Origin: Brooklawnia cerclae
Lineage (GTDB): Bacteria > Actinomycetota > Actinomycetes > Propionibacteriales > Propionibacteriaceae
Length of the DNA stretch: 64,000 nucleotides
Assembly (NCBI RefSeq): GCF_011758645.1
Contig: NZ_JAAMOZ010000004.1
Span: 124,001 to 188,000 of the forward strand
Direction: 5' to 3'
Shown here: piece after piece, positions 3,081-44,332 of the stretch
Numbering within the stretch: the stretch's first letter is position 1
How the letters are laid out: every line of letters begins with the position of its first letter
Position numbers and translations under genes: made by a program
The notes under the pieces: model-generated
Told to the model about the DNA's origin: nothing
The model's database searches: none
The model's input: the letters and a program-made list of their open reading frames with translations, nothing else

Positions 3081-5144
3081 GTGACCAACAAGAGCGTCTA
3101 CATCGCATCGCCCGAGGGGTTGGTCGGCAAGAGCGCCATCGCCCTCGGGCTCATCGAATCCCTATCCCGCCAGGTCAAATCCGTGGGCATCTTCCGCCCG
3201 ATGGTGATCGGTGACCACGACACCATCGCCCAGGCCCTGCTCGCACAAACCGGCATCGACCAGACCTACGACGAAGCCGTCGGGCTCACGGTCCGACAGA
3301 CCGAGGACGATCCCGAGCAAGCCCTCACCCAGATCATCGAACAGTACGGTGCGCTGCAGGACCGCTACGACGCGCTCGTGGTCATCGGCAGCGACTACGA
3401 AGGCGTGGCCTCACCCACCGAGTTGGCGTTCAACGCCCGCGTCGCCGCGAACCTGAATGCTCCGGTGCTGCTGGTCGTCAGCGGCCGCGAGCGCGATGCC
3501 GACGAGGTCGTCGCCTCGGCCGAGCACGCGATCCGGTCGTTCGAGGATCAGCACGACAGGGTGATCGGCGTCATCGCCAACCGCGTGGACCCCGAGCACC
3601 TGGACGCCGTGAAGGCGGGGCTCGCCGCCATCGACCACGGGGTCAGCGCCGCGATCCCCGAGAGCGCGCTGCTCGCGGCCCCCTCGGTGCGGGCGCAGTT
3701 CGACCGGCTCGGCGCGCAGCTGTGGCGCGGCGACGAGAACAACCTCGACCGCGAGTCGCTGAGCGTGGTGGTCGCGGGCATGACTCTGCCGAACGTGCTC
3801 AACCGGCTCGAGCCGGAGTCCTCGGTCGTGGTCGCCTCCGACCGTACCGATCTGCTTCCCGGTCTGCTGCTGGCGCACTCCTCCGACACGTTCCCGAACC
3901 TCGCGTCCATCTTCCTGGTGGGTGGCTACGAGATCCCGGCCTCGGTCGGCAAGCTGCTCGACGGCCTCAGTGTCTCCGTGCCCGTCGGTCTGGTCCCCGA
4001 CAAGGGAACATTCGCCACCGCGACCGAACTGCACGACACGCACGGCACGGTCATCGGGTCGGCCCGCAAGTTCACCGAGGCACTGAGCCTCTTCCAGGAG
4101 CACGTGGACGAGGAGTCCGTCGTCGCCGCCCTCGATCTGCCACGCGCCCAGCTGCGTACCCCGCGCATGTTCGAGTACCAGGTGATGCAGAAGGCCCGCG
4201 CCGACAAGAAGACCATCGTCCTCCCCGAGGCCGACGATGCCCGGATCCTGGAGGCCACCTCGATCCTGCTCAAGCGGAACGTCGCGAACATCGTCCTGCT
4301 GGGCGAGCCCGAGCAGGTCAAGCAGGACGCGGCCCGGCTCGGTTTCGACATCGCGGGCGCCCAGATCCAGTCGATGAGCGATCCCGAACTGGTGGAGAAG
4401 TTCTCGGCCAAGTACGCCGAACTGCGCGCCAAGAAGGGCGTGACCATCGAGCAGGCCCGCGAGAAGATGACCGATCCTTCGTACTTCGGCACGATGATGG
4501 TCCACTTCGGCATGGCCGACGGCATGGTGTCGGGCGCCGCGCACACGACGGCGAACACGATTCGCCCGGCTCTGGAGTTCATCAAGACCAAGCCGGGACG
4601 CAAGGTCGTCTCCGGCGCGTTCCTCATGGCGATGCCCGATCAGGTGCTGGTGTTCGCCGACTGCGCGGTCAACCCGAACCCGACCTCGGAGCAGCTCGCC
4701 GACATCGCGATCGCCACCGCCGCCACTGCCAAGGCGTTCGACATCGATCCGCGCGTCGCCATGCTGTCGTACTCGACAGGCACGTCGGGCTTCGGCGAGG
4801 ACGTGGACGCCGTCCGCGAGGCGACCGAGTTGGTCAAGGCCACCCAGCCGGACTTCGCCGTGGCGGGGCCGATCCAGTTCGACGCCGCGATGGATCCCAC
4901 TGTCGGCCGGCAGAAGATGCCCGACTCGCAGGTGGCGGGCCAGGCGACGGTCTACATCTTCCCCGACCTCAACACGGGCAACAACACCTACAAGGCCGTG
5001 CAGCGCACGTCCGGGGCCGTGGCGATCGGCCCGATGCTGCAGGGCCTCAACAAGCCGGTGAACGACCTGTCACGAGGTGCCCTGGTGCCCGACATCGTCA
5101 ACACCGTCGCGATCACCGCGATCCAGGCGCAGATGGGCATCTGA
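3081..5144 (+). CDS. pta: Phosphate acetyltransferase, long form with DRTGG domain
   Basis: Interconverts acetyl-CoA and acetyl-phosphate; with acetate kinase it makes acetate and ATP. 687 residues from the GTG at 3081. The frame stays open upstream to 2934, but that part is low-complexity and homology starts at KSVYIASPEGLVGKSAIALG, the BioD-like P-loop domain of long Pta. Order: P-loop domain about 1-210, DRTGG domain about 215-330, catalytic PTA domain about 365-687 (KKTIVLPEADDARILEA, MVHFGMADGMVSGAAHTT, LSYSTGTSGFG). ackA follows after 367 bases. Confidence 0.95.
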   Translation: MTNKSVYIASPEGLVGKSAIALGLIESLSRQVKSVGIFRPMVIGDHDTIAQALLAQTGIDQTYDEAVGLTVRQTEDDPEQALTQIIEQYGALQDRYDALVVIGSDYEGVASPTELAFNARVAANLNAPVLLVVSGRERDADEVVASAEHAIRSFEDQHDRVIGVIANRVDPEHLDAVKAGLAAIDHGVSAAIPESALLAAPSVRAQFDRLGAQLWRGDENNLDRESLSVVVAGMTLPNVLNRLEPESSVVVASDRTDLLPGLLLAHSSDTFPNLASIFLVGGYEIPASVGKLLDGLSVSVPVGLVPDKGTFATATELHDTHGTVIGSARKFTEALSLFQEHVDEESVVAALDLPRAQLRTPRMFEYQVMQKARADKKTIVLPEADDARILEATSILLKRNVANIVLLGEPEQVKQDAARLGFDIAGAQIQSMSDPELVEKFSAKYAELRAKKGVTIEQAREKMTDPSYFGTMMVHFGMADGMVSGAAHTTANTIRPALEFIKTKPGRKVVSGAFLMAMPDQVLVFADCAVNPNPTSEQLADIAIATAATAKAFDIDPRVAMLSYSTGTSGFGEDVDAVREATELVKATQPDFAVAGPIQFDAAMDPTVGRQKMPDSQVAGQATVYIFPDLNTGNNTYKAVQRTSGAVAIGPMLQGLNKPVNDLSRGALVPDIVNTVAITAIQAQMGI

Positions 5145-8416: not shown

Positions 8417-10324
8417 ATGGCACTGGGTCGTGAAACGGGGCAGGCAATGAAGCAGGCATCCGGAACCGACGGGTCCGGGCAGGAGACGCTGGGTGTGGCC
8501 GCGGTCGTGGTCACCTTCAACCGCGTCGCCCTGCTGCAGCGCCTCGTCACCCGTCTTCTCGAGCTGGGATCGGTGGACGCGATCCTGGTCGTCGACAATG
8601 CCTCGTCGGACGGCACCGGCGAATGGCTCGCCGACCTGTCGGCGCGCGAACCTCGCGTCCGCTACCGCATCCTGCCCACCAACGCGGGCGGCGCAGGCGG
8701 TTTCCAGGCCGGGCTGGAATGGGCGCACGATCTCGGCGCGGAACTGGCCTGGTTGATGGACGACGACGGGCTTCCCGCACCCGACTGTCTCGACAAACTT
8801 CTCGTCCACAAGGGTGAATACGACTTCTGGGGGCCGGCGGTACTGGCTCAGCAGCGCCCGGACGAGCTGTGCTTCCCGGTGCGGCTGCCCGGGACGGCGA
8901 CAGTGGCTCGTACCCTCGACCAACTTGAGGACGTCGCCGTCGACGGTCGGGTGGCCGATGTGGTGATCCCCTTCAACGGAGTGCTCGTCACTCACGAGCT
9001 CGTCGATCGCATCGGCACGGTGCGTGCGGAGTTCTTCATCTGGGGCGACGACGTCGAGTACCTGTGGCGGGCGATCGACGCGGGGGCCCGCGTCGCGACC
9101 ATCGTGGACGCGCACTTCCTGCACCCGGCCACCGACGATCTCGGCACGCCCATGCTGCGCGGTCTGACCACCTACAACCATTCGCCGAGCGACCTCAAGC
9201 ACTACTGCATGGCGCGCAACAACACGGTCAACCTACTGACGTTCCGGGGGCCGCTCCACGCGGCCGCCTTCTGGGCGAAGACAGCCTGGTTCTACACCTT
9301 CGTGAAGCCGAGTGCACGGCGACTGATCCTGTCGGCACAGGCGATCCTCGACGGGTTGCGGGGCAATTTCACCGGGCACGAGCGATTCCTGCCCCCGCGT
9401 CCGCCGCACCCCGCGTCCCCGGGCGAACGTGTCGCCGTCGTCGTGGTCACGTACAAGCGGCCCGAGCTTCTCGATCAGTTGCTCACCGATCTCGCCGCGC
9501 AGACCCGGCGTCCCGATGGGGTGTTCGTCGTCGACAACTCCGGCGACGAGGCCACGGCCCGAGTGCTGGAGGCACATAGCGAGCTTCCGCTACGGGTCGA
9601 TCATGTCGGAGCCAACCTCGGCGGTGCCGGCGGGTTCAACCGAGGGGTCCGGGCCGCCCATGAAGCCGGCTTCGACCGTCTGTGGCTGATGGACGACGAC
9701 GTGCGCCCCGCTCCATGGGCGTTGCAGGCCCTCCTCGCCGACGGTGGGGACTGCCTCGCCTGCGTACGAGAGGACCGGCGCGGAAACCTGGTCGAGAAGG
9801 CGGCCGTTCGCTTCGACCTGAGCAATCCACTGCAGCTGCGGCCGAAAGTGGCCAGCATCGAGCAGACCTACCCCTGCCGCGCATCCATGCCGGCCCGCAT
9901 CCACATCGAGAACGCGGCATTCGAGGGGTTCATGGTGCACCGCCGGGTGGTGGATGCCATCGGCTATCCCGACCCGAGCTTCTTCATCTTCTACGACGAC
10001 TGCGACTTCCAGCTGCGGGCGCAGCGTGCGGGCTTCGCGATGTGGGCGGTGAGGGATGCGCTCATGCGCCGCCAGTTCGACTTCGTCCAGTCCAACGATC
10101 TGGCCAGTTGGAAGGGTTTCTACATGTACCGCAACCTGTTCGCGGTGCACTTCCGGTACGGGACGAACGCCCTGGTGCGACTCAAACCGTTCGTGCTGAC
10201 CGCGGGGGTGGTCGCGCTGTCGCCGGTACGGGGTGGGCCCGGGGAGGCTCGCAACGTGCTCCGGGCGCTGGTGGGAGCGTTGCGCATGCGCAGGCTCGAT
10301 TCGCGGGCGAAGTTGGGCTCCTGA
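8417..10324 (+). CDS. Glycosyltransferase with two tandem GT2 domains (galactofuranosyltransferase-like)
   Basis: 635 residues containing two full GT-A domains. Domain 1 (about 27-300) starts AAVVVTFNRVALLQ, with VVDNASSDGTG, NAGGAGGFQAG and LMDDDG. Domain 2 (about 337-620) starts VAVVVVTYKRPELLDQ, with VVDNSGDE, NLGGAGGFNRG and LMDDDV. Both share the GGAGGF and DDD marks of GlfT1-type enzymes that start galactan on a lipid carrier using UDP-galactofuranose. glf, glfT2 and an ABC exporter lie about 1-6 kb downstream on the other strand, so a role in galactan assembly is likely (inference). The acceptor is unknown; the second domain could act on a different sugar. Confidence 0.82.
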   Translation: MALGRETGQAMKQASGTDGSGQETLGVAAVVVTFNRVALLQRLVTRLLELGSVDAILVVDNASSDGTGEWLADLSAREPRVRYRILPTNAGGAGGFQAGLEWAHDLGAELAWLMDDDGLPAPDCLDKLLVHKGEYDFWGPAVLAQQRPDELCFPVRLPGTATVARTLDQLEDVAVDGRVADVVIPFNGVLVTHELVDRIGTVRAEFFIWGDDVEYLWRAIDAGARVATIVDAHFLHPATDDLGTPMLRGLTTYNHSPSDLKHYCMARNNTVNLLTFRGPLHAAAFWAKTAWFYTFVKPSARRLILSAQAILDGLRGNFTGHERFLPPRPPHPASPGERVAVVVVTYKRPELLDQLLTDLAAQTRRPDGVFVVDNSGDEATARVLEAHSELPLRVDHVGANLGGAGGFNRGVRAAHEAGFDRLWLMDDDVRPAPWALQALLADGGDCLACVREDRRGNLVEKAAVRFDLSNPLQLRPKVASIEQTYPCRASMPARIHIENAAFEGFMVHRRVVDAIGYPDPSFFIFYDDCDFQLRAQRAGFAMWAVRDALMRRQFDFVQSNDLASWKGFYMYRNLFAVHFRYGTNALVRLKPFVLTAGVVALSPVRGGPGEARNVLRALVGALRMRRLDSRAKLGS

Positions 10325-33473: not shown

Positions 33474-33650
33474 CGGCCGTCGAGCTTGTCGAAACGACCT
33501 CCACAACCGCTCCTTTCGACAAGCTCAAGGAGCACCAAGACGGCCGTTGAGCTTGTCGAAACGACCCTTCGACAAACTCAGGGACCCCAAACGGCCGTTG
33601 AGCTCGTCGAAACGACCCTTCGACAAGCTCAGGGACCGGGACCATCCGTC
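33474..33650. repeat. Tandem copies of the TTCGACAAGCTCA repeat (50-bp unit)
   Basis: Two near-identical 50-bp units (about 33540-33589 and 33590-33639) start ACGGCCGTTGAGCT, and a more diverged copy starts at 33474. Each unit holds an inverted pair, TTGAGCTTGTCGAAA and CTTCGACAAGCTCAGGGA. Related copies are at 37979-38146, 51594-51681 and 5194-5210. It lies just upstream of the aldo/keto reductase gene. Open frames through it (VVELVETT or FDKLRD peptides) are by-products. Confidence 0.85.
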
Positions 33651-37978: not shown

Positions 37979-38146
37979 TTTCGACAAGCTCAACGAGCGT
38001 TCCGCAAGTGGTCCTCGAGCCTAAGGAAGAACTCGTTTCGACAAGCTCAACGAGCATTCTGCAGGCGGTCCTTGAGCTGGACCGAGAGCTCGTTTCGACA
38101 AGCTCAACGAGCGTTCCGCAAGTGGTCCTTGAGCTTGTCGAAAGGA
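37979..38146. repeat. Tandem copies of the TTCGACAAGCTCA repeat (57-bp period)
   Basis: TTTCGACAAGCTCAACGAGC recurs at 37979, 38036 and 38093, a regular 57-bp period. The array closes with the inverse form CTTGAGCTTGTCGAAAGGAC (about 38127-38146). The spacing sequences are diverged copies of one another, so it is not a CRISPR. It lies between mscS and the cobalamin riboswitch and could act as a terminator barrier. Confidence 0.85.
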
Positions 38147-38199: not shown

Positions 38200-38310
38200 G
38201 CTGGGTTAGCCTCATAGGAGGATCCGATCGGGGGAATCTGGTGCAAACCCAGAGCTGACCCGCAGCCGTGATGGACGCCGATGCGTCCCAGCCGGAATGC
38301 CCGTGCGGAG
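38200..38310 (+). ncRNA. Cobalamin riboswitch
   Basis: The core 38230-38272 reads GGGGAATCTGGTGCAAACCC then AGAGCTGACCCGCAGCCGTG, matching the conserved GGGAA..GGTG.AA..CC....CTG.CCCGC..C.GT pattern of the class. The B12 box is at about 38290-38308 (AGCCGGAATGCCCGTGCGG). An upstream stem segment GGGTTAGCCTCAT lies at 38203-38215. Such RNAs bind adenosyl- or other cobalamins and switch off B12 transport or synthesis genes. It precedes the alpha/alpha-toroid and ECF operon by about 80 bases. Outer boundaries are approximate. Confidence 0.9.
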
Positions 38311-38365
38311 CCGACCAGTAACGCTCGTCGCGGTCCACGGGTGGGTCAGGCGCTCGTCGCACCTC

Positions 38366-38389
38366 CCCCGGACCAGGAAAGGACCGGGG
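38366..38389 (+). promoter_or_regulatory. Hairpin holding the ribosome binding site, likely riboswitch expression platform
   Basis: CCCCGGACC (38366-38374) pairs with GGACCGGGG (38381-38389) with one A-A mismatch. The loop and 3' side contain AGGAAAGGA, the ribosome binding site, and the ATG follows at 38390. A stem this close would block initiation, which fits translational control by the riboswitch (inference). Confidence 0.65.
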
Positions 38390-39550
38390 ATGAATCTCCG
38401 AAACAAGCTGCTGGCCGTCGGGATCGCGGCCGGCCTCGTTCTGACGCCCGTCGCATCAACGGCGCTCGCCAGCCAATCGCATGCGGGACCCGTCGTCTCA
38501 CAGGTGCAGAACCAGGACGCCGCCACCCGCGCGGCCGACTGGCTGAACAGCCAGTTCGTCGATAGCACGTATCTGACCGGTTTCACCGGCGAGGGGGACC
38601 CCTCCAACACCGCGGACGCAGTCTTGGCCCTGGTGGCCTCGCAGGCGCATCCCGAGACCATCACCAAGGCCGTTGAATGGCTACAGTCCCAAGCACCGAC
38701 GGCAGCCACGAACGCGGGCAATTCCGCTCGTTTCCTGCTGGTCGCGGACGCCATGGGCATCGACCCGACAGACTTCGGGGGCGTCGACCTGGTCAGCAAG
38801 GTTGCTGACGACGGCAGCAGCCAGGCCGGCAATCCCTACGGACTGGCTCTTCAGGTGCTCGCTCTGTCACGATCCGGTGCCACCGTGCCGGACGGGATCG
38901 TCAACGCACTGTCAGCCACGCAGGAAGCTTCAGGAGCGTTCGCCTTTCCCTCAGGCATCGATATCGACTCCACCGGCCTAGCCGCGCTCGCGCTTTCCCT
39001 CCTCACAGAAGACCCGGACGCTCAGGACGCCGCGGATGCCGCCGTCCAGTGGCTGCTTGACAACCAGTGCACAACGGTCGTCGGCCAGTGCACCAGCGTC
39101 GGCGCCTATTGGGGCAGTTACTCGCCCGCCAACACCTCGGGCCTGGTCATCCCGGCTCTGGCCACCGCGGGATACGACGAGACCGATGAGGTCGCCTGGC
39201 TGCTGACCCAGCAGACAGGCGACGGCGGCTTCGCCTACAACGGAGCCAGCGACATCTACGCCACCTCACAGGCACTCATCGCCATCACCGGTAGTTCCCT
39301 CGCAACGGTCGAGATGTTCGAGTACACCGAGCCGACCCAGACCCCCGTTCCGACCAGCGTCGCACCGACGCCGGTGCCGGAGGAGACCACCCCGACGACC
39401 TCGGCGAGCAGCACCAGCCCGGCGCCGACGGCCTCGGCCGACAAGCCCCAGAAGCTCCCGCAGACCGGGAGTGACGGCTCCGGCATGATCGGTCTCGCTC
39501 TGATCACCCTCGCGGCCGGGGTGGTCGCGGCATCGCGGATCCGGAAGTGA
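38390..39550 (+). CDS. LPXTG-anchored alpha/alpha-toroid protein, likely surface cobalamin-binding
   Basis: 386 residues. Signal peptide about 1-28 (MNLRNKLLAVGIAAGLVLTP ending STALA). Residues about 45-310 are a series of helical repeats like those of prenyltransferase/terpene-cyclase toroids and of the N-domain of transcobalamin and intrinsic factor: AADWLNSQF, AVEWLQSQ, GLALQVLALS, STGLAALALSLL, AVQWLLDNQ, VAWLLTQQTGDGGFAYNG. A Thr/Pro/Ser-rich wall spacer follows (about 320-350), then LPQTG at 356-360, a TM segment and RIRK, a sortase signal. A cobalamin riboswitch lies upstream and an ECF transporter downstream, so B12 capture is the best guess. Enzyme activity is not expected. Confidence 0.8.
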   Translation: MNLRNKLLAVGIAAGLVLTPVASTALASQSHAGPVVSQVQNQDAATRAADWLNSQFVDSTYLTGFTGEGDPSNTADAVLALVASQAHPETITKAVEWLQSQAPTAATNAGNSARFLLVADAMGIDPTDFGGVDLVSKVADDGSSQAGNPYGLALQVLALSRSGATVPDGIVNALSATQEASGAFAFPSGIDIDSTGLAALALSLLTEDPDAQDAADAAVQWLLDNQCTTVVGQCTSVGAYWGSYSPANTSGLVIPALATAGYDETDEVAWLLTQQTGDGGFAYNGASDIYATSQALIAITGSSLATVEMFEYTEPTQTPVPTSVAPTPVPEETTPTTSASSTSPAPTASADKPQKLPQTGSDGSGMIGLALITLAAGVVAASRIRK

Positions 39551-40500
39551 CCGCAGCCCTGCGCCGTCTTCTCCGCCCTCGCGGCGTGCTGGCCGGCGTG
39601 CTCCTGACGCTCCTCGTCCTCGCGGGGGCCGTGGGGTCGGCCCGGCCGGCCGCCGCGGATTCCGGTGCGGCCACCTGCATGGGCAACGGCGGCATCTACG
39701 TCTACGTCTTCAACCAGGGCAGCGAGATCGCTGAAGGATGCTCCTCGGGCAGCAACGCCTATCAGAGAGTCAGCTCGGTTGCCGGTGGGACGCAAGCCAC
39801 ATCAAGCGGATTCATCTGCAAGATCGGTGGCGTTCCGGACGGCGCCTGCGAGGTCGATTCGAGCACCCAGGTGTACTGGAGCTTCTGGTGGTGGCGGAAC
39901 GGCAGCTGGACCTATGCCACGGCCGGAGGTGGCTACGCGGGTGTCGCCGGCACGGCCGAGGCATGGAACTACTCCACCGGCCAGGCGCCCCCGGTGAGCC
40001 CGCCCGATCCTGCCGTGGCCCAGCCCGAGCCTGCCCCCGCGACCGAACAGCCCGCAGCGGCCCAGCCCGACAGCGGCTCCGGCCAGGACTCGGGCCAAGC
40101 AGGCGGCCAGGCCGCGGGCACCACCACCTCGCAGGGGTCCGGCCCCACGGCAGCGGGCGCCACGACCAGTGGTGGCCAGACCACGGCGAGCACCGACCCG
40201 TCGTCCGCATCGCAGTCGCCCGAATCCTCCTCGTCGAGCGGGACGCCGTCGGCGCAGGGCTCGGCGGACGCATCGTCCTCCGCCTCGTCGAACGCGTCGG
40301 TTTCGTCCACGCCCGTCTCACAGCCGACAACAGGTGGTGGCGGCCCCTGGGCCACCGTCGGGACGCTGTCGGCGCTGGCCGTCGGCGGTGCCGGCTACGG
40401 CCTGTGGACCTGGCGCAAGCACAGGCGTCCGGGCGACCCGATGATCTCCCCCGACCCGACGACCACCTTCGACCCGCCGACCCTGCCCGAGCCGGAGTGA
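39547..40500 (+). CDS. Membrane-anchored protein with transcobalamin C-terminal-like (DUF4430-like) domain
   Basis: 317 residues; GTG start overlaps the previous stop (GTGA). Signal peptide about 1-37 (ending ARPAAA). Domain about 40-145: IYVYVFNQGS, GFICKIGGVPDGAC, VYWSFWWWRNGSWTYATAGG, then AEAWNYSTG. The pattern Cys-x-I-x-G-x-P...C...YWSxW...G.WTY resembles the beta-domain of transcobalamin-like proteins. A long Pro/Ser/Thr/Gln spacer (about 150-265) leads to a TM segment (about 268-288) and a short basic-then-acidic tail. In animal B12 carriers the helical and beta domains form one chain; here they would be separate proteins. Domain call is by recognition only. Confidence 0.7.
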   Translation: MTAALRRLLRPRGVLAGVLLTLLVLAGAVGSARPAAADSGAATCMGNGGIYVYVFNQGSEIAEGCSSGSNAYQRVSSVAGGTQATSSGFICKIGGVPDGACEVDSSTQVYWSFWWWRNGSWTYATAGGGYAGVAGTAEAWNYSTGQAPPVSPPDPAVAQPEPAPATEQPAAAQPDSGSGQDSGQAGGQAAGTTTSQGSGPTAAGATTSGGQTTASTDPSSASQSPESSSSSGTPSAQGSADASSSASSNASVSSTPVSQPTTGGGGPWATVGTLSALAVGGAGYGLWTWRKHRRPGDPMISPDPTTTFDPPTLPEPE

Positions 40501-40504
40501 CCCG

Positions 40505-41638
40505 GTGAGCAGGGTGCTGCCACGCCCGGCGGTGGGCGTCCTGCAGGCGCCGCCCAGCCCGGGCGCCCGCATGGTCGGCCGTGTCATCCACCCCTGGGCG
40601 TGGTGGTCGTGGGCCATCGGCACCGGCATCGCCGTGAGCCTGGCCCACAACCCGCTCCTGCTCGTCCTGCTGATCGCCGCGGTGACGTTCGTCGTCCTGC
40701 AACGGCGGACGACCGCTCCGTGGGCGCGCTCGCTCGGCCTGTACTTCGTGCTGGCCGGCATCATCATCGCCGTCCGTCTCGTCTTCCAGGTGCTGATCGG
40801 GGGTCTCCGCGAGGGCACCGTGGTGTTCACCCTGCCCGAACTGACCCTGCCCAGCTGGGCCGCGGGCATCCGCGTCGGCGGGCCGGTCACGATCGAGGGC
40901 CTTGTGTACACGGTCTTCGACGCCGGACGGCTGGCCGGCCTGATCATCTGCATCGGCGCCGCGAACGCCCTGGCCAATCCCAAGCGGGCGTTACGCAGCG
41001 TCCCCCCAGCCTTCCACCAGATCGCGACCTCGCTGGTGATCGCGATCACCGTGGCCCCCCAACTGGTGGAGTCGGTGCTGCGCGTCCGGCGCGCTCGGCG
41101 GTTGCGCGGGGGCATCCGCAAGGGCATCGGTGGCCTGGTCTCGATCATCGTCCCCGTGCTGGAGGACGCCGTCGACCGGTCGTTGGCGTTGGCGGCGGGG
41201 ATGGAGTCGCGCGGCTTCGGTCGCACCCGGGCCGGACGACGCCTCGGCGTCCTCGACGCGGCCGCGCTCGTCGGAGCCATGATCCTGCTCGTCTTCGGTA
41301 TGTTCGCCCTGCTGGGGCTGCCCAGTGACAGCCTCCGGTGGGCGCTGCCCGTGCTGTTCGCCGGCCTGGTGCTGGGAGTCGTGGCCGTCTGGCGTAGTGG
41401 GCGCTACCTTGCCGTCACGCGCTATCGTCCCGACCCCTGGCAGGCCCCCGACTCGCTCGTCGCGGTCTGCGGTCTGGCCGCTGCCGCTCTGGCCGTGTGG
41501 CTGGTCAACTCCGAGCCTGCCATGACGATGGCCGCCTACCCGCTGGTATGGCCCCGGCTGACCCCCCTCATGGTGCTCACGGCCGTCGTCGCGGCGCTAC
41601 CCGGTGTGGCGACGCCTCGTCCCCCGCAGGATGCCTGA
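40505..41638 (+). CDS. ecfT: ECF transporter transmembrane subunit EcfT
   Basis: Scaffold subunit that couples the ATPases to the substrate-binding S component. 377 residues, starting with GTG 4 bases after the previous stop. Hydrophobic segments in the first half, then two amphipathic helices with the Ala-Arg-Gly type coupling motifs: VRRARRLRGGIRKGIGG and AAGMESRGFGRTRAGRR. More hydrophobic segments close the protein, making it longer than the usual about 260 residues. The neighbouring genes encode fused EcfA domains and an S component. Confidence 0.9.
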   Translation: MSRVLPRPAVGVLQAPPSPGARMVGRVIHPWAWWSWAIGTGIAVSLAHNPLLLVLLIAAVTFVVLQRRTTAPWARSLGLYFVLAGIIIAVRLVFQVLIGGLREGTVVFTLPELTLPSWAAGIRVGGPVTIEGLVYTVFDAGRLAGLIICIGAANALANPKRALRSVPPAFHQIATSLVIAITVAPQLVESVLRVRRARRLRGGIRKGIGGLVSIIVPVLEDAVDRSLALAAGMESRGFGRTRAGRRLGVLDAAALVGAMILLVFGMFALLGLPSDSLRWALPVLFAGLVLGVVAVWRSGRYLAVTRYRPDPWQAPDSLVAVCGLAAAALAVWLVNSEPAMTMAAYPLVWPRLTPLMVLTAVVAALPGVATPRPPQDA

Positions 41639-41669
41639 TGCCCACGCCACGGACCCCGGAGGTCTCCCG

Positions 41670-43346
41670 ATGATCGACTTCGACGACGTGACCATCAGCT
41701 ACGCCTCGGGGGAGGACCCGAACTCCTACGCGCCGCCCGTGCTGCGGAACGTGAGCCTGAGAATCCCCGAGGGCGACCTCGTGCTTGTCGTGGGACGCAC
41801 CGGCACGGGAAAGTCGACGTTGCTCGGTGCGATCAACGGACTCGTGCCGCATTTCACCGGGGGGCGGCTCACCGGCGAGGTGCGCGTGGCGGGCCGCCCC
41901 ACCAGGCTCAACAGGCCCCGCGACCTCGCCGACGTCGTCGGTTCCGTCGGGCAGAACCCGTTGCTGGGTTTCGTCACCGACCAGGTGGAGGACGAGATCG
42001 CCTACGGCATGGAGCAACTCGGCCTGAGCCCGCAGGCCATGCGCAAGCGTGTCGAGGAGACCCTCGACCTCATGGGCATCGCCGACCTCCGGCGGCGGCC
42101 CCTGCTCGACCTGTCCGGCGGGCAGCAGCAGCGAGTAGCCATCGCGGCCGTCCTCGCCGCGCAGCCACGGGTCGTCGTCCTCGACGAGCCCACCTCCGCC
42201 CTCGACCCGACGGCCGCGCAGGATGTGCTCTCGGCGATCACCACGCTCGTGCACGAGGTCGGCCTGACCGTCGTCCTGGCCGAGCACCGCCTCGAACGCG
42301 TCACCCAGGTGGCCGACCAGGTCGCCTGGCTGCCCGGCGACGGCACGGTCGACGTCGGGCCGACCGCCGAGGTGCTGGCGCGCTGCGACGTCGTCCCACC
42401 CCTGTCGGCGCTCGCCCGCCGTCTCGGCTGGGATCGGGTGCCCGGCAGCGTCCGCGACGCGCGCCGCCGTGTGCAGGCCGAGCGCATCGTGGTGGCCCCG
42501 GCCCCTCCGGATCCGCCCCTGCCCGACACCCCGACGGTCGTGCGAACCGACCGGTTGCGCGTCCGCTACGGCGAGGTGGTGGCCGTCGACTCGGTCTCAC
42601 TCGCCCTCGTGGGCGGAACCGTCACCGCCCTCATGGGACGCAACGGCGCGGGCAAGTCGTCCCTGCTGTGGGCGATCCAGGGCGCGGTCGCCAGCTCCGG
42701 AACCGTCGAGATCGGCGGCGTCGACCCCCGTACATTGCCCGCCGACGAGGTGGGACGCCTGGTGACGCTCGTCCCCCAGACGGCCTCCGACCTGCTCTAC
42801 CTGCCCACGGTGGACGCCGAGTGCGCACAGGCCGACCTCGAGTCCGGGGCTCCGCACGGCACGACGCGCGCGATCCTGACCCGACTCGGCGCCGATCTGC
42901 CCGGCGACCGTCACCCGCGCGACCTGTCCGAGGGACAGCGCCTGGCACTCGTCCTGGCGATCCAGTTGGCGAGCCACCCCGCGGCCCTGCTACTGGACGA
43001 GCCCACCCGCGGCCTCGACTACGCGATGAAGGCCGAGCTCACGCGCCTGATCACAGGTGTGGCGGCCGATGGCACCTGCGTGGTCATCAGCACCCACGAC
43101 GTCGAGTTCGCCGCCGCCTCCACCCAGCGGACGATCGTGATGGCCGACGCGGACGTGGTGGCCGACGGGCCGACGCGCGCGGTGCTCACCTCGTCGCCGA
43201 GCTTTTCGCCACAGATGGCCAAGATCTTCCATCCGCGCTCGCTGCTGACACCCGACGAGGTGGAACGCACCGACGGCCAGGCCTCCGGCGGGAGTCCCGC
43301 CTCCGCGAGCGAGGTTCGGCGAACGACCGAAGGGACGCTGCGATGA
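41670..43346 (+). CDS. ecfA: ECF transporter ATPase, two ABC domains fused (EcfA-EcfA')
   Basis: 558 residues holding both ATPase domains. Domain 1: Walker A GRTGTGKST, Q-loop GSVGQNPLLGF, signature LSGGQQQR, Walker B VVVLDEPTSALD, switch His in LAEHRLE. Domain 2: Walker A GRNGAGKSS, Q-loop VPQTASDLLY, signature LSEGQRLAL (second Gly of LSGGQ replaced by Glu), Walker B ALLLDEPTRGLD, switch ISTHDVEF. ATG 41670 has GGAGG 8 bases upstream; the frame extends back into ecfT (ATG 41631) without one. Stop overlaps the S-component start. Confidence 0.93.
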   Translation: MIDFDDVTISYASGEDPNSYAPPVLRNVSLRIPEGDLVLVVGRTGTGKSTLLGAINGLVPHFTGGRLTGEVRVAGRPTRLNRPRDLADVVGSVGQNPLLGFVTDQVEDEIAYGMEQLGLSPQAMRKRVEETLDLMGIADLRRRPLLDLSGGQQQRVAIAAVLAAQPRVVVLDEPTSALDPTAAQDVLSAITTLVHEVGLTVVLAEHRLERVTQVADQVAWLPGDGTVDVGPTAEVLARCDVVPPLSALARRLGWDRVPGSVRDARRRVQAERIVVAPAPPDPPLPDTPTVVRTDRLRVRYGEVVAVDSVSLALVGGTVTALMGRNGAGKSSLLWAIQGAVASSGTVEIGGVDPRTLPADEVGRLVTLVPQTASDLLYLPTVDAECAQADLESGAPHGTTRAILTRLGADLPGDRHPRDLSEGQRLALVLAIQLASHPAALLLDEPTRGLDYAMKAELTRLITGVAADGTCVVISTHDVEFAAASTQRTIVMADADVVADGPTRAVLTSSPSFSPQMAKIFHPRSLLTPDEVERTDGQASGGSPASASEVRRTTEGTLR

Positions 43347-44218
43347 GTGCCACAGCTGTCGCACCCCACGGCACCGGTTCCGGACGGCCGGATCGCCCCG
43401 AGCCCGGCGCTCCTCCACCGTCCCACCCCGGGACGATCCGGCCCCGGGCGGCGGCCGCCGTCGTCCCCCTCGGGGCCGCTTCGGCGATCATGCTCGTCAC
43501 GGCCGCGGTCGCCGGTGTCGTCGCGTTCACCTGGCCGCTGTTCCTGCGCCCGGACGCCGCCCTGTCCTACACCTCGCTCGCCCCGATCGTCATCGGCGCG
43601 ATCCTGCCGCTGCTGATCGCGCTCGTGCTCGTCCAGATCTCCAACGGGCAGTTGGACATCAAGGCCCTCGCCATGCTGGGCGTCCTCACCGCCCTGGGCG
43701 CGTTCGCCCGCCCCCTCGGAGCGGGGACCGCGGGCGTGGAGACCGTGTTCTTCCTCGTCATCCTCGCCGGGCGCGTTTTCGGGCCCGGATTCGGGTTCGT
43801 CCTGGGCAACACGACGCTGTTCGCGTCGGCGCTCATCACCGGGTACGTCGGGCCATGGCTGCCCTATCAGATGCTCGCCACCGGGTTCGTCGGGCTGGGC
43901 TCGGGGCTGCTCCCCCGGCGCCCGCGCGGGGCCGGGGAGATCGCCCTGCTGGCGGTGCACGGCGCCGTCTGGTCGTTCGTCTTCGGCATCGCCATGGACT
44001 TCGCCTACTGGCCGTTCGCCGTGGGCCAGGGCGGCGCCGGGTTCGATCCGGCGGCCGGCCCGCTGGAGAACCTGCGTCGGTTCTTCGTCGTCAACCTCGT
44101 CACGGGCATGGGCTGGAACGCCGGGCGAGCGATCACCAACATCGTGCTCGTCGTGGTGCTCGGGTCACCCGTGCTGCGTGTGCTGCGCCGTGCCTCGCGG
44201 CGTGCGGCCTTCGGCTGA
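43343..44218 (+). CDS. ECF transporter substrate-binding (S) component, probably for cobalamin
   Basis: 291 residues. An unusual Pro/Gly-rich cytosolic N-terminus (about 1-40) is followed by about six hydrophobic segments. The part from DIKALAMLGVLTALGAFARP to LVILAGRVFGPGFGFVLGN has the Ala-rich helix that contacts EcfT. CbrT-type B12 S components have this length and layout, and the riboswitch supports cobalamin as the cargo. A precursor such as dimethylbenzimidazole or cobinamide remains possible. ATGA overlap with ecfA. The operon ends at the palindrome at 44250-44332. Confidence 0.8.
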   Translation: MSATAVAPHGTGSGRPDRPEPGAPPPSHPGTIRPRAAAAVVPLGAASAIMLVTAAVAGVVAFTWPLFLRPDAALSYTSLAPIVIGAILPLLIALVLVQISNGQLDIKALAMLGVLTALGAFARPLGAGTAGVETVFFLVILAGRVFGPGFGFVLGNTTLFASALITGYVGPWLPYQMLATGFVGLGSGLLPRRPRGAGEIALLAVHGAVWSFVFGIAMDFAYWPFAVGQGGAGFDPAAGPLENLRRFFVVNLVTGMGWNAGRAITNIVLVVVLGSPVLRVLRRASRRAAFG

Positions 44219-44249: not shown

Positions 44250-44332
44250 GGCACAAGAGAATCTGACGCCAGTTCGATAATTTGCCCATCACGGCATCCA
44301 TACCGGCAACGGGCGTCAGATTCTCTTGTGCC
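44250..44332. repeat. Palindromic element, TCTGACGCC family (copy 2)
   Basis: Perfect 21-bp arms: 44250-44270 (GGCACAAGAGAATCTGACGCC, 21 bases, here given by its ends GGCACAAGAG and ATCTGACGCC) and 44312-44332, with a 41-base loop. The AATCTGACGCC core is shared with the element at 2809-2871. It follows the ECF operon by about 30 bases and may end its transcript. The rest of the gap up to 44502 shows nothing recognisable. Confidence 0.8.

Follow-up and report, generated by a model that had tools for sequence, protein, structure and literature searches.

Bacterial proteins which combine an α/α-toroid with an SLBB domain of the transcobalamin type have been described; they are often anchored and are encoded together with CbiO- and CbiQ-like genes, and Burroughs et al. 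(2007; PMC1796856) proposed a role for them in scavenging B12 or B12 precursors. The same paper notes toroid-SLBB fusions in both orders in other bacteria, and proposes that the animal B12 carriers were acquired from low-GC Gram-positives (PMC1796856). For import across the membrane, ECF-CbrT of Lactobacillus is a B12 transporter of the energy-coupling factor (ECF) type (PMC5997447). Here we analyse a stretch of 64,000 nucleotides from the actinobacterium Brooklawnia cerclae (assembly GCF_011758645.1, contig NZ_JAAMOZ010000004.1, positions 124,001 to 188,000; hereafter the window), in which a cobalamin riboswitch is followed on the forward strand by five genes, closely spaced or overlapping, that encode, in order, a toroid protein, a beta protein, EcfT, a fused EcfA and EcfS. 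We propose that this operon serves cobalamin-controlled corrinoid uptake, in which the toroid and beta proteins would jointly hold B12 and pass it to EcfS, and we consider this reading probable. Because bacterial toroid and SLBB scavengers of B12 were already proposed by Burroughs et al. (2007), the general kind of system is known, and what is new here is an actinobacterial branch, divergent and for the most part split, that is related to the SCO2321 and SCO2322 families. A search confined to open-licence literature, with papers judged by title and the start of the abstract, found no publication on the actinobacterial split system, which is a weak negative; SCO2321 itself was named in an unrelated context, that of a skin-delivery peptide.

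The riboswitch was the single match at gathering score when the whole window was scanned with Rfam, and its family, RF00174, responds to cobalamin. The toroid protein has a signal-peptide-like start and, towards its C-terminus, an LPQTG motif (39455-39469), a hydrophobic stretch and a basic tail, all identified by visual inspection of the translation; the genome contains five sortase matches. It passes the Pfam family PF01122 (Cobalamin_bind) with 27.8 bits against a cut-off of 25, and falls below the cut-off of the NCBIfam model SCO2321_fam (66 bits, cut-off 300). Among 198 genomes the window toroid is the sole PF01122 match, so this family is impractical as a marker of the system. By eye, the beta protein begins with a signal-peptide-like segment, continues with a Cys- and Trp-rich domain of roughly 115 residues and then a long Ser/Thr/Pro/Gln linker, and ends in a hydrophobic anchor with a basic tail. 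A sequence-only reading of this DNA had put forward the cobalamin riboswitch, the LPQTG-anchored toroid, the separately encoded membrane-anchored beta protein and their union in one operon with EcfT, a fused EcfA and EcfS, and each of these is borne out by the family matches, by two PF00005 stretches in EcfA, by the relatives of EcfS and by a gene order that recurs across Actinobacteria. The coordinates are collected in Table 1.

Table 1. Features of the riboswitch-linked operon, in window positions (E, expectation value; pLDDT, predicted local distance difference test; pTM, predicted template modelling score).
Feature	Position	Strand	Evidence
Cobalamin riboswitch aptamer core (RF00174)	38231..38302	+	35.9 bits, gathering score 31.5, E 1.9e-5
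Candidate ribosome-site hairpin (possible expression platform), AGGAAAGG at its centre, immediately 5' of the ATG	38367..38388	+	Minimum free energy fold of 38205-38392
Secreted, sortase-type-anchored α/α-toroid protein, 386 amino acids	38390..39550	+	PF01122 Cobalamin_bind match; anchor by eye
Membrane-anchored beta-grasp (transcobalamin C-terminal-like) protein, 317 amino acids	39547..40500	+	GTG start overlapping the toroid stop
Folded beta-grasp domain, amino acids 37-151	39655..39999	+	pLDDT 89.1, pTM 0.83
C-terminal hydrophobic anchor of the beta protein, then RKHRR	40345..40413	+	Translation read by eye
EcfT transmembrane component	40505..41638	+	PF02361 CbiQ, 32.4 bits, cut-off 25
Fused EcfA-EcfA' ATPase	41671..43346	+	PF00005, E 9.9e-47, two ATP-binding cassette stretches
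EcfS substrate-binding membrane component	43343..44218	+	ATG start overlaps the EcfA stop; alignment with relatives

The beta domain was folded using 70 relatives in the alignment. The model runs strand, strand, helix, two short strands (46-48 and 54-57) and then three further strands, and the strand order is that of a beta-grasp in which a hairpin follows the helix. With a second structure aligner (VIA) the top 15 matches are transcobalamin, haptocorrin, intrinsic factor and the bacterial protein 3u7z, at Z 8.7-9.6, and the next match is a RAS/RAF complex at Z 5.8. Foldseek placed 3u7z, rat transcobalamin and haptocorrin best, at E 0.04 to 0.13, with the transcobalamin, haptocorrin and intrinsic factor chains at E 0.12 and weaker. 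In addition, the beta profile was compared with 24 DUF4430 sequences of the phylum, giving 94% probability (E 1.3e-7) with alignment A1 and 84% (E 7.4e-6) with A5, each value being that of a single pair. These results support a transcobalamin-type beta-grasp fold for the modelled domain.

The sequence-only reading had assigned this protein to DUF4430 and suggested a profile search with PF14478. That search came back empty: a Pfam scan of the beta protein up to E 1 gave no match, whether to PF14478 (gathering score 23.8 bits) or to any other family, and the host genome held no PF14478 match at E 0.001. Thus the DUF4430 assignment stands on fold and profile comparison alone, and not on the family model. 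Other searches were similarly unproductive, as the beta profile met only chance nanobody matches and no transcobalamin chain among the PDB sequences, and single-sequence searches with the toroid and with the beta protein gave nothing useful. In a tree of 120 beta domains, for which the bootstrap had not settled, the window protein was poorly placed, with an end branch of 3.22 and no more than 35% identity to any row; two congeners left out of the tree (L030 and L031) are 43-47% identical to it. DUF4430 matches above the Pfam cut-off do lie close to a beta-family gene at two other loci (L178 in genome G227, near 8480-8630, and G040:C203:4034-4207), and the two beta types can therefore share one neighbourhood.

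The operon is conserved well beyond this genus. The beta profile matched in 68 of 396 genomes of the phylum, and of 289 beta stretches confirmed in named genomes the best 80 loci were kept, selected by the beta domain alone and by similarity to one query, so that the counts which follow describe an uneven sample of the phylum. The toroid lies no more than 3.5 kb before the beta in 59 of 67 loci, EcfT follows the beta in 66 of 71 testable loci, and EcfA and an EcfS of the window family each follow it in 55 of 60. At least two beta domains stand close together in 35 of the 80. These loci span Propionibacteriaceae, Micromonosporaceae, Pseudonocardiaceae, Intrasporangiaceae, Nocardioidaceae, Nitriliruptoraceae, Streptomycetaceae and others, and since the same order recurs across Actinobacteria, the gene order in the window is beyond chance. 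Moreover, of 19 related loci 14 have a cobalamin-clan riboswitch shortly upstream of the toroid gene, as do two (L185 and L187) of a further seven. As a separate observation, locus L083 carries a strong divergent cobalamin riboswitch (3914-4130, minus strand, 95.8 bits) next to that of the operon itself (33 bits).

Toroid and beta are also found fused. Ten of the 80 loci have both in one reading frame, eight in the toroid-beta order of transcobalamin and two in the beta-toroid order. We modelled one toroid-beta fusion, L122, from an alignment (A8) of 50 rows, of which 12 cover the toroid and 46 the beta domain, after setting aside alignments A6 and A7, in which distant toroid rows spilled into the beta columns. 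The model (pLDDT 93.7, pTM 0.85) retrieved with Foldseek a top 15 made up entirely of transcobalamin, haptocorrin or intrinsic factor, at E 1.8e-11 to 1.7e-7 and over 413-446 columns. Both modelled domains match those of the animal carriers, their mutual placement differs, and the model supports the shared architecture. A structural match to transcobalamin had been made the test of the sequence-only reading, and it was found for the window beta model and for the fusion alike. In seven of the eight toroid-beta fusion loci (L063, L066, L093, L096, L101, L105 and L122) a separate second beta gene persists, the sequence of the eighth (L075) ending too early; in six of the seven it lies immediately 5' of EcfT, with no EcfT found at L063. 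This position suggests that the separate beta may have a distinct role. The fusions of L066, L093, L096, L101, L105 and L122 also have, after the beta domain, an extra C-terminal region of about 80-100 residues with WYRSG or WYRNG.

A further form is found in the SCO2322 family. Twelve proteins (L006, L007, L008, L009 and L170-L177) were picked because they match the beta profile mainly over its C-half, and all pass the SCO2322 family cut-off; eleven come from one family, taken as streptomycetes, and one from another. In each the order of the domain is swapped, with the YWSFW...GFRF half leading and the four-cysteine half second, a proportion that, given this selection, says nothing about frequency. 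The first half agrees with the C-half profile at 98% probability (E 2.5e-14), and the second agrees more weakly with the N-half profile (43%, E 2.5e-4), its score of 26.4 standing against a maximum of 16.6 in 100 column shuffles. Four cysteines are present at printed positions of the second segment in all twelve, while the cysteine-pattern regular expression as written matched one of them. Conversely, in G134, a protein of normal order, the SCO2322 model matched in two pieces in swapped order. A trial with half profiles recovered no permuted protein at its cut-off, the N-half profile having scored weakly (E 0.1 to 61). Taken together, the profile comparison, the shuffles, the cysteines and the NCBIfam pieces suggest that the beta proteins of the SCO2322 family are circular permutants of the window-type beta-grasp domain. 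Circular permutation has been noted for the E1 UFD domain in a review of the beta-grasp fold, in a passage that does not tie it to transcobalamin-type domains (PMC1949818). At two SCO2322-type loci (L180 and L181) EcfA is present as two adjacent pieces or genes and not as one fused chain.

We therefore return to corrinoid uptake as the probable function of the operon and set out how it may work. The riboswitch would permit expression of the operon at low intracellular levels of cobalamin. The toroid would be exported and fixed by sortase to the cell wall, and the beta-grasp protein would be fixed in the membrane. B12 or a related corrinoid would then be held between the two, much as it is between the two domains of transcobalamin in one chain, and would be delivered to EcfS for import with EcfT and EcfA. 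Within this scheme the ligand, the clamp between two proteins, the hand-over and the repression by the riboswitch are inferred; joint action of toroid and beta is supported by their conserved association, their fusions and their fold. A bolder version, to which we give a little less than even weight, is that of a two-protein transcobalamin: toroid and beta would close on B12 intermolecularly and the beta encoded beside EcfT would present it to EcfS. Since Actinobacteria contain split, fused (in both orders), duplicated and permuted forms side by side, the animal carrier would then represent one fused product of a bacterial system built from modules.

Several observations weigh against corrinoid uptake by such a pair. 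Firstly, the toroid and beta of the window are two separate genes and are not fused, and Foldseek with the window beta model alone gives no E under 0.001. Secondly, the ligand-free model of L122 does not reproduce the closed clamp, lying 16-17 Å root-mean-square deviation from the animal carrier chains that it matches best, with a template modelling score of 0.41-0.48. Thirdly, the toroid profile is closest among PDB sequences to squalene cyclases (E 5.8e-30, against E 0.28 for transcobalamin), and the toroid of the fusion model gives near-equal Z for terpene cyclases (22.6), intrinsic factor (21.8) and GH76 mannanases (21.4). The fold class of the toroid is thus clear, and the toroid alone is not decisive for function. 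Fourthly, no riboswitch reached gathering score in five of the 19 related loci (L055, L057, L064, L117 and L121, with almost no sequence available upstream of the toroid in L057) or in five of the further seven (L179, L180, L181, L183 and the congener L186, with no toroid detected at L179). Finally, the host may make B12 itself, because its genome holds CbiC and a CbiA-type gene, the latter behind a riboswitch-like site below cut-off; if so, it may combine synthesis with salvage. Of the transcobalamin-like receptor that the sequence-only reading had proposed, the anatomy holds, in the riboswitch, the anchors, the operon, the beta fold, the PF01122 match and the fusions, so that the reading is supported in part; the closed arrangement of the two domains was not recovered (about 16 Å from transcobalamin in the fusion model), the toroid is nearest by profile to squalene cyclases, and the beta protein does not match PF14478.

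Some of these points would fit a B12 importer in which a single surface protein, beta or toroid, binds B12 and the other is a scaffold or serves another step, so that no two-protein clamp forms. PDB entry 5np4 is a structure of the isolated human transcobalamin beta domain with cyanocobalamin, the L122 model shows no closed clamp, and both the separate beta gene kept in fusion loci and the frequent presence of two or more beta domains imply that the beta adjacent to EcfT may act alone. We nevertheless regard one-protein binding as unlikely, given that toroid and beta are fused in both orders and that the toroid so regularly precedes the beta. It is also conceivable, if improbable in our judgement, that the same machinery has a salvage role for another corrinoid or B12 precursor, cobinamide or a non-cobalamin cobamide. 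With corrin-ring genes (CbiC and the CbiA-type gene) in the genome, plain scavenging of B12 is less needed, and Burroughs et al. (2007) left open 'B12 or its precursors' (PMC1796856). Against another corrinoid as ligand stands the control element, as the riboswitch family is one for cobalamin. That the toroid is a secreted terpene-cyclase-like enzyme, in an operon for some other substrate, is very hard to sustain despite its similar fold and a profile closest to squalene-hopene cyclases, as the window toroid lacks the catalytic DxDD of squalene and terpene cyclases, DxDD[TS] occurs in one of 84 toroid segments, and the protein has signal and wall-anchor motifs, a cobalamin riboswitch, a PF01122 match and relatives fused to a transcobalamin-type beta. 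A terpene cyclase identity was accordingly rejected on the missing DxDD and the gene context.

The transporter genes complete the operon. EcfA scores 258 bits with TIGR04521 (E 6.2e-77), below the cut-off of 330, and its start is more likely the ATG at 41671, which is preceded by GGAGG, than the listed GTG at 41604. EcfS was aligned with 18 relatives at 48-59% identity; the window protein alone matched no Pfam family, 13 of the 19 members of the alignment matched PF12822 at E <= 0.1, and the EcfS profile met one chance-level match among PDB sequences (E 0.96).

Upstream, the leader hairpin of Table 1 is a possible expression platform within a weak fold: the fold of 38205-38392 is not better than that of shuffled sequences (z -0.92), with 33 of 200 shuffles at least as stable. 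Scans of the operon for promoters, of sigma-70 type only, and for terminators found none. Shortly 5' of the riboswitch, at 37979-38143, and again at 33477-33612, are copies of an intergenic repeat, TTTCGACAAGCTCAACGA, which has nine copies in the window against none expected, and 291 genome-wide against one for a reversed control. Shortly 3' of EcfS, at 44250-44332, lies a 25-nucleotide inverted repeat (96% complementary, 33-nucleotide spacer) that is possibly a terminator or a small mobile element.

To our knowledge, the capture of extracellular B12 by Gram-positives ahead of ECF import has been little studied. A conserved riboswitch-linked operon with both transcobalamin halves and a complete ECF transporter makes this step directly testable, points to a bacterial relative of the animal B12 capture system and gives the SCO2321 and SCO2322 families a candidate function, and its split, fused and permuted versions are material for studying the origin of the animal carriers.

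How, then, does the locus compare with known systems? The role we propose would make it an ECF-type B12 importer like ECF-CbrT (PMC5997447), with no sequence link of the window EcfS to CbrT, since the EcfS profile gave only its chance-level PDB match. Closer in layout are the NCBIfam families SCO2321_fam and SCO2322_fam, in which toroid and beta are likewise neighbours beside EcfT, EcfA and EcfS; their descriptions name no function, the window proteins lie far below both cut-offs, and the SCO2322-family beta is apparently circularly permuted, unlike that of the window. The clade of Burroughs et al. (2007) resembles the window in secretion or anchoring, in combining a toroid with a transcobalamin-type SLBB domain and in having an ABC ATPase and a CbiQ-type protein in the operon (PMC1796856). 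However, that clade is drawn from low-GC Gram-positives, planctomycetes and euryarchaea, with Streptomyces and Propionibacterium unmentioned in the main text, whereas the window branch is actinobacterial, mostly split and below detection by PF14478; the bacteria of that clade usually are without key enzymes of B12 synthesis (PMC1796856), whereas the window organism carries CbiC. Transcobalamin, intrinsic factor and haptocorrin share with the window the pairing of an α/α-toroid and a beta-grasp domain. When aligned by eye, the C-half consensus of the family, YWSYW...GAxxYxPxxG, resembles residues 377-409 of human transcobalamin, WQLL...GIADYRPKDG, and the window beta shares the Y and G of the GIADYRPKDG segment but not the P. 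The animal carriers, however, are one chain, whereas the window has two proteins, one with a wall anchor and one with a membrane anchor, encoded beside the importer.

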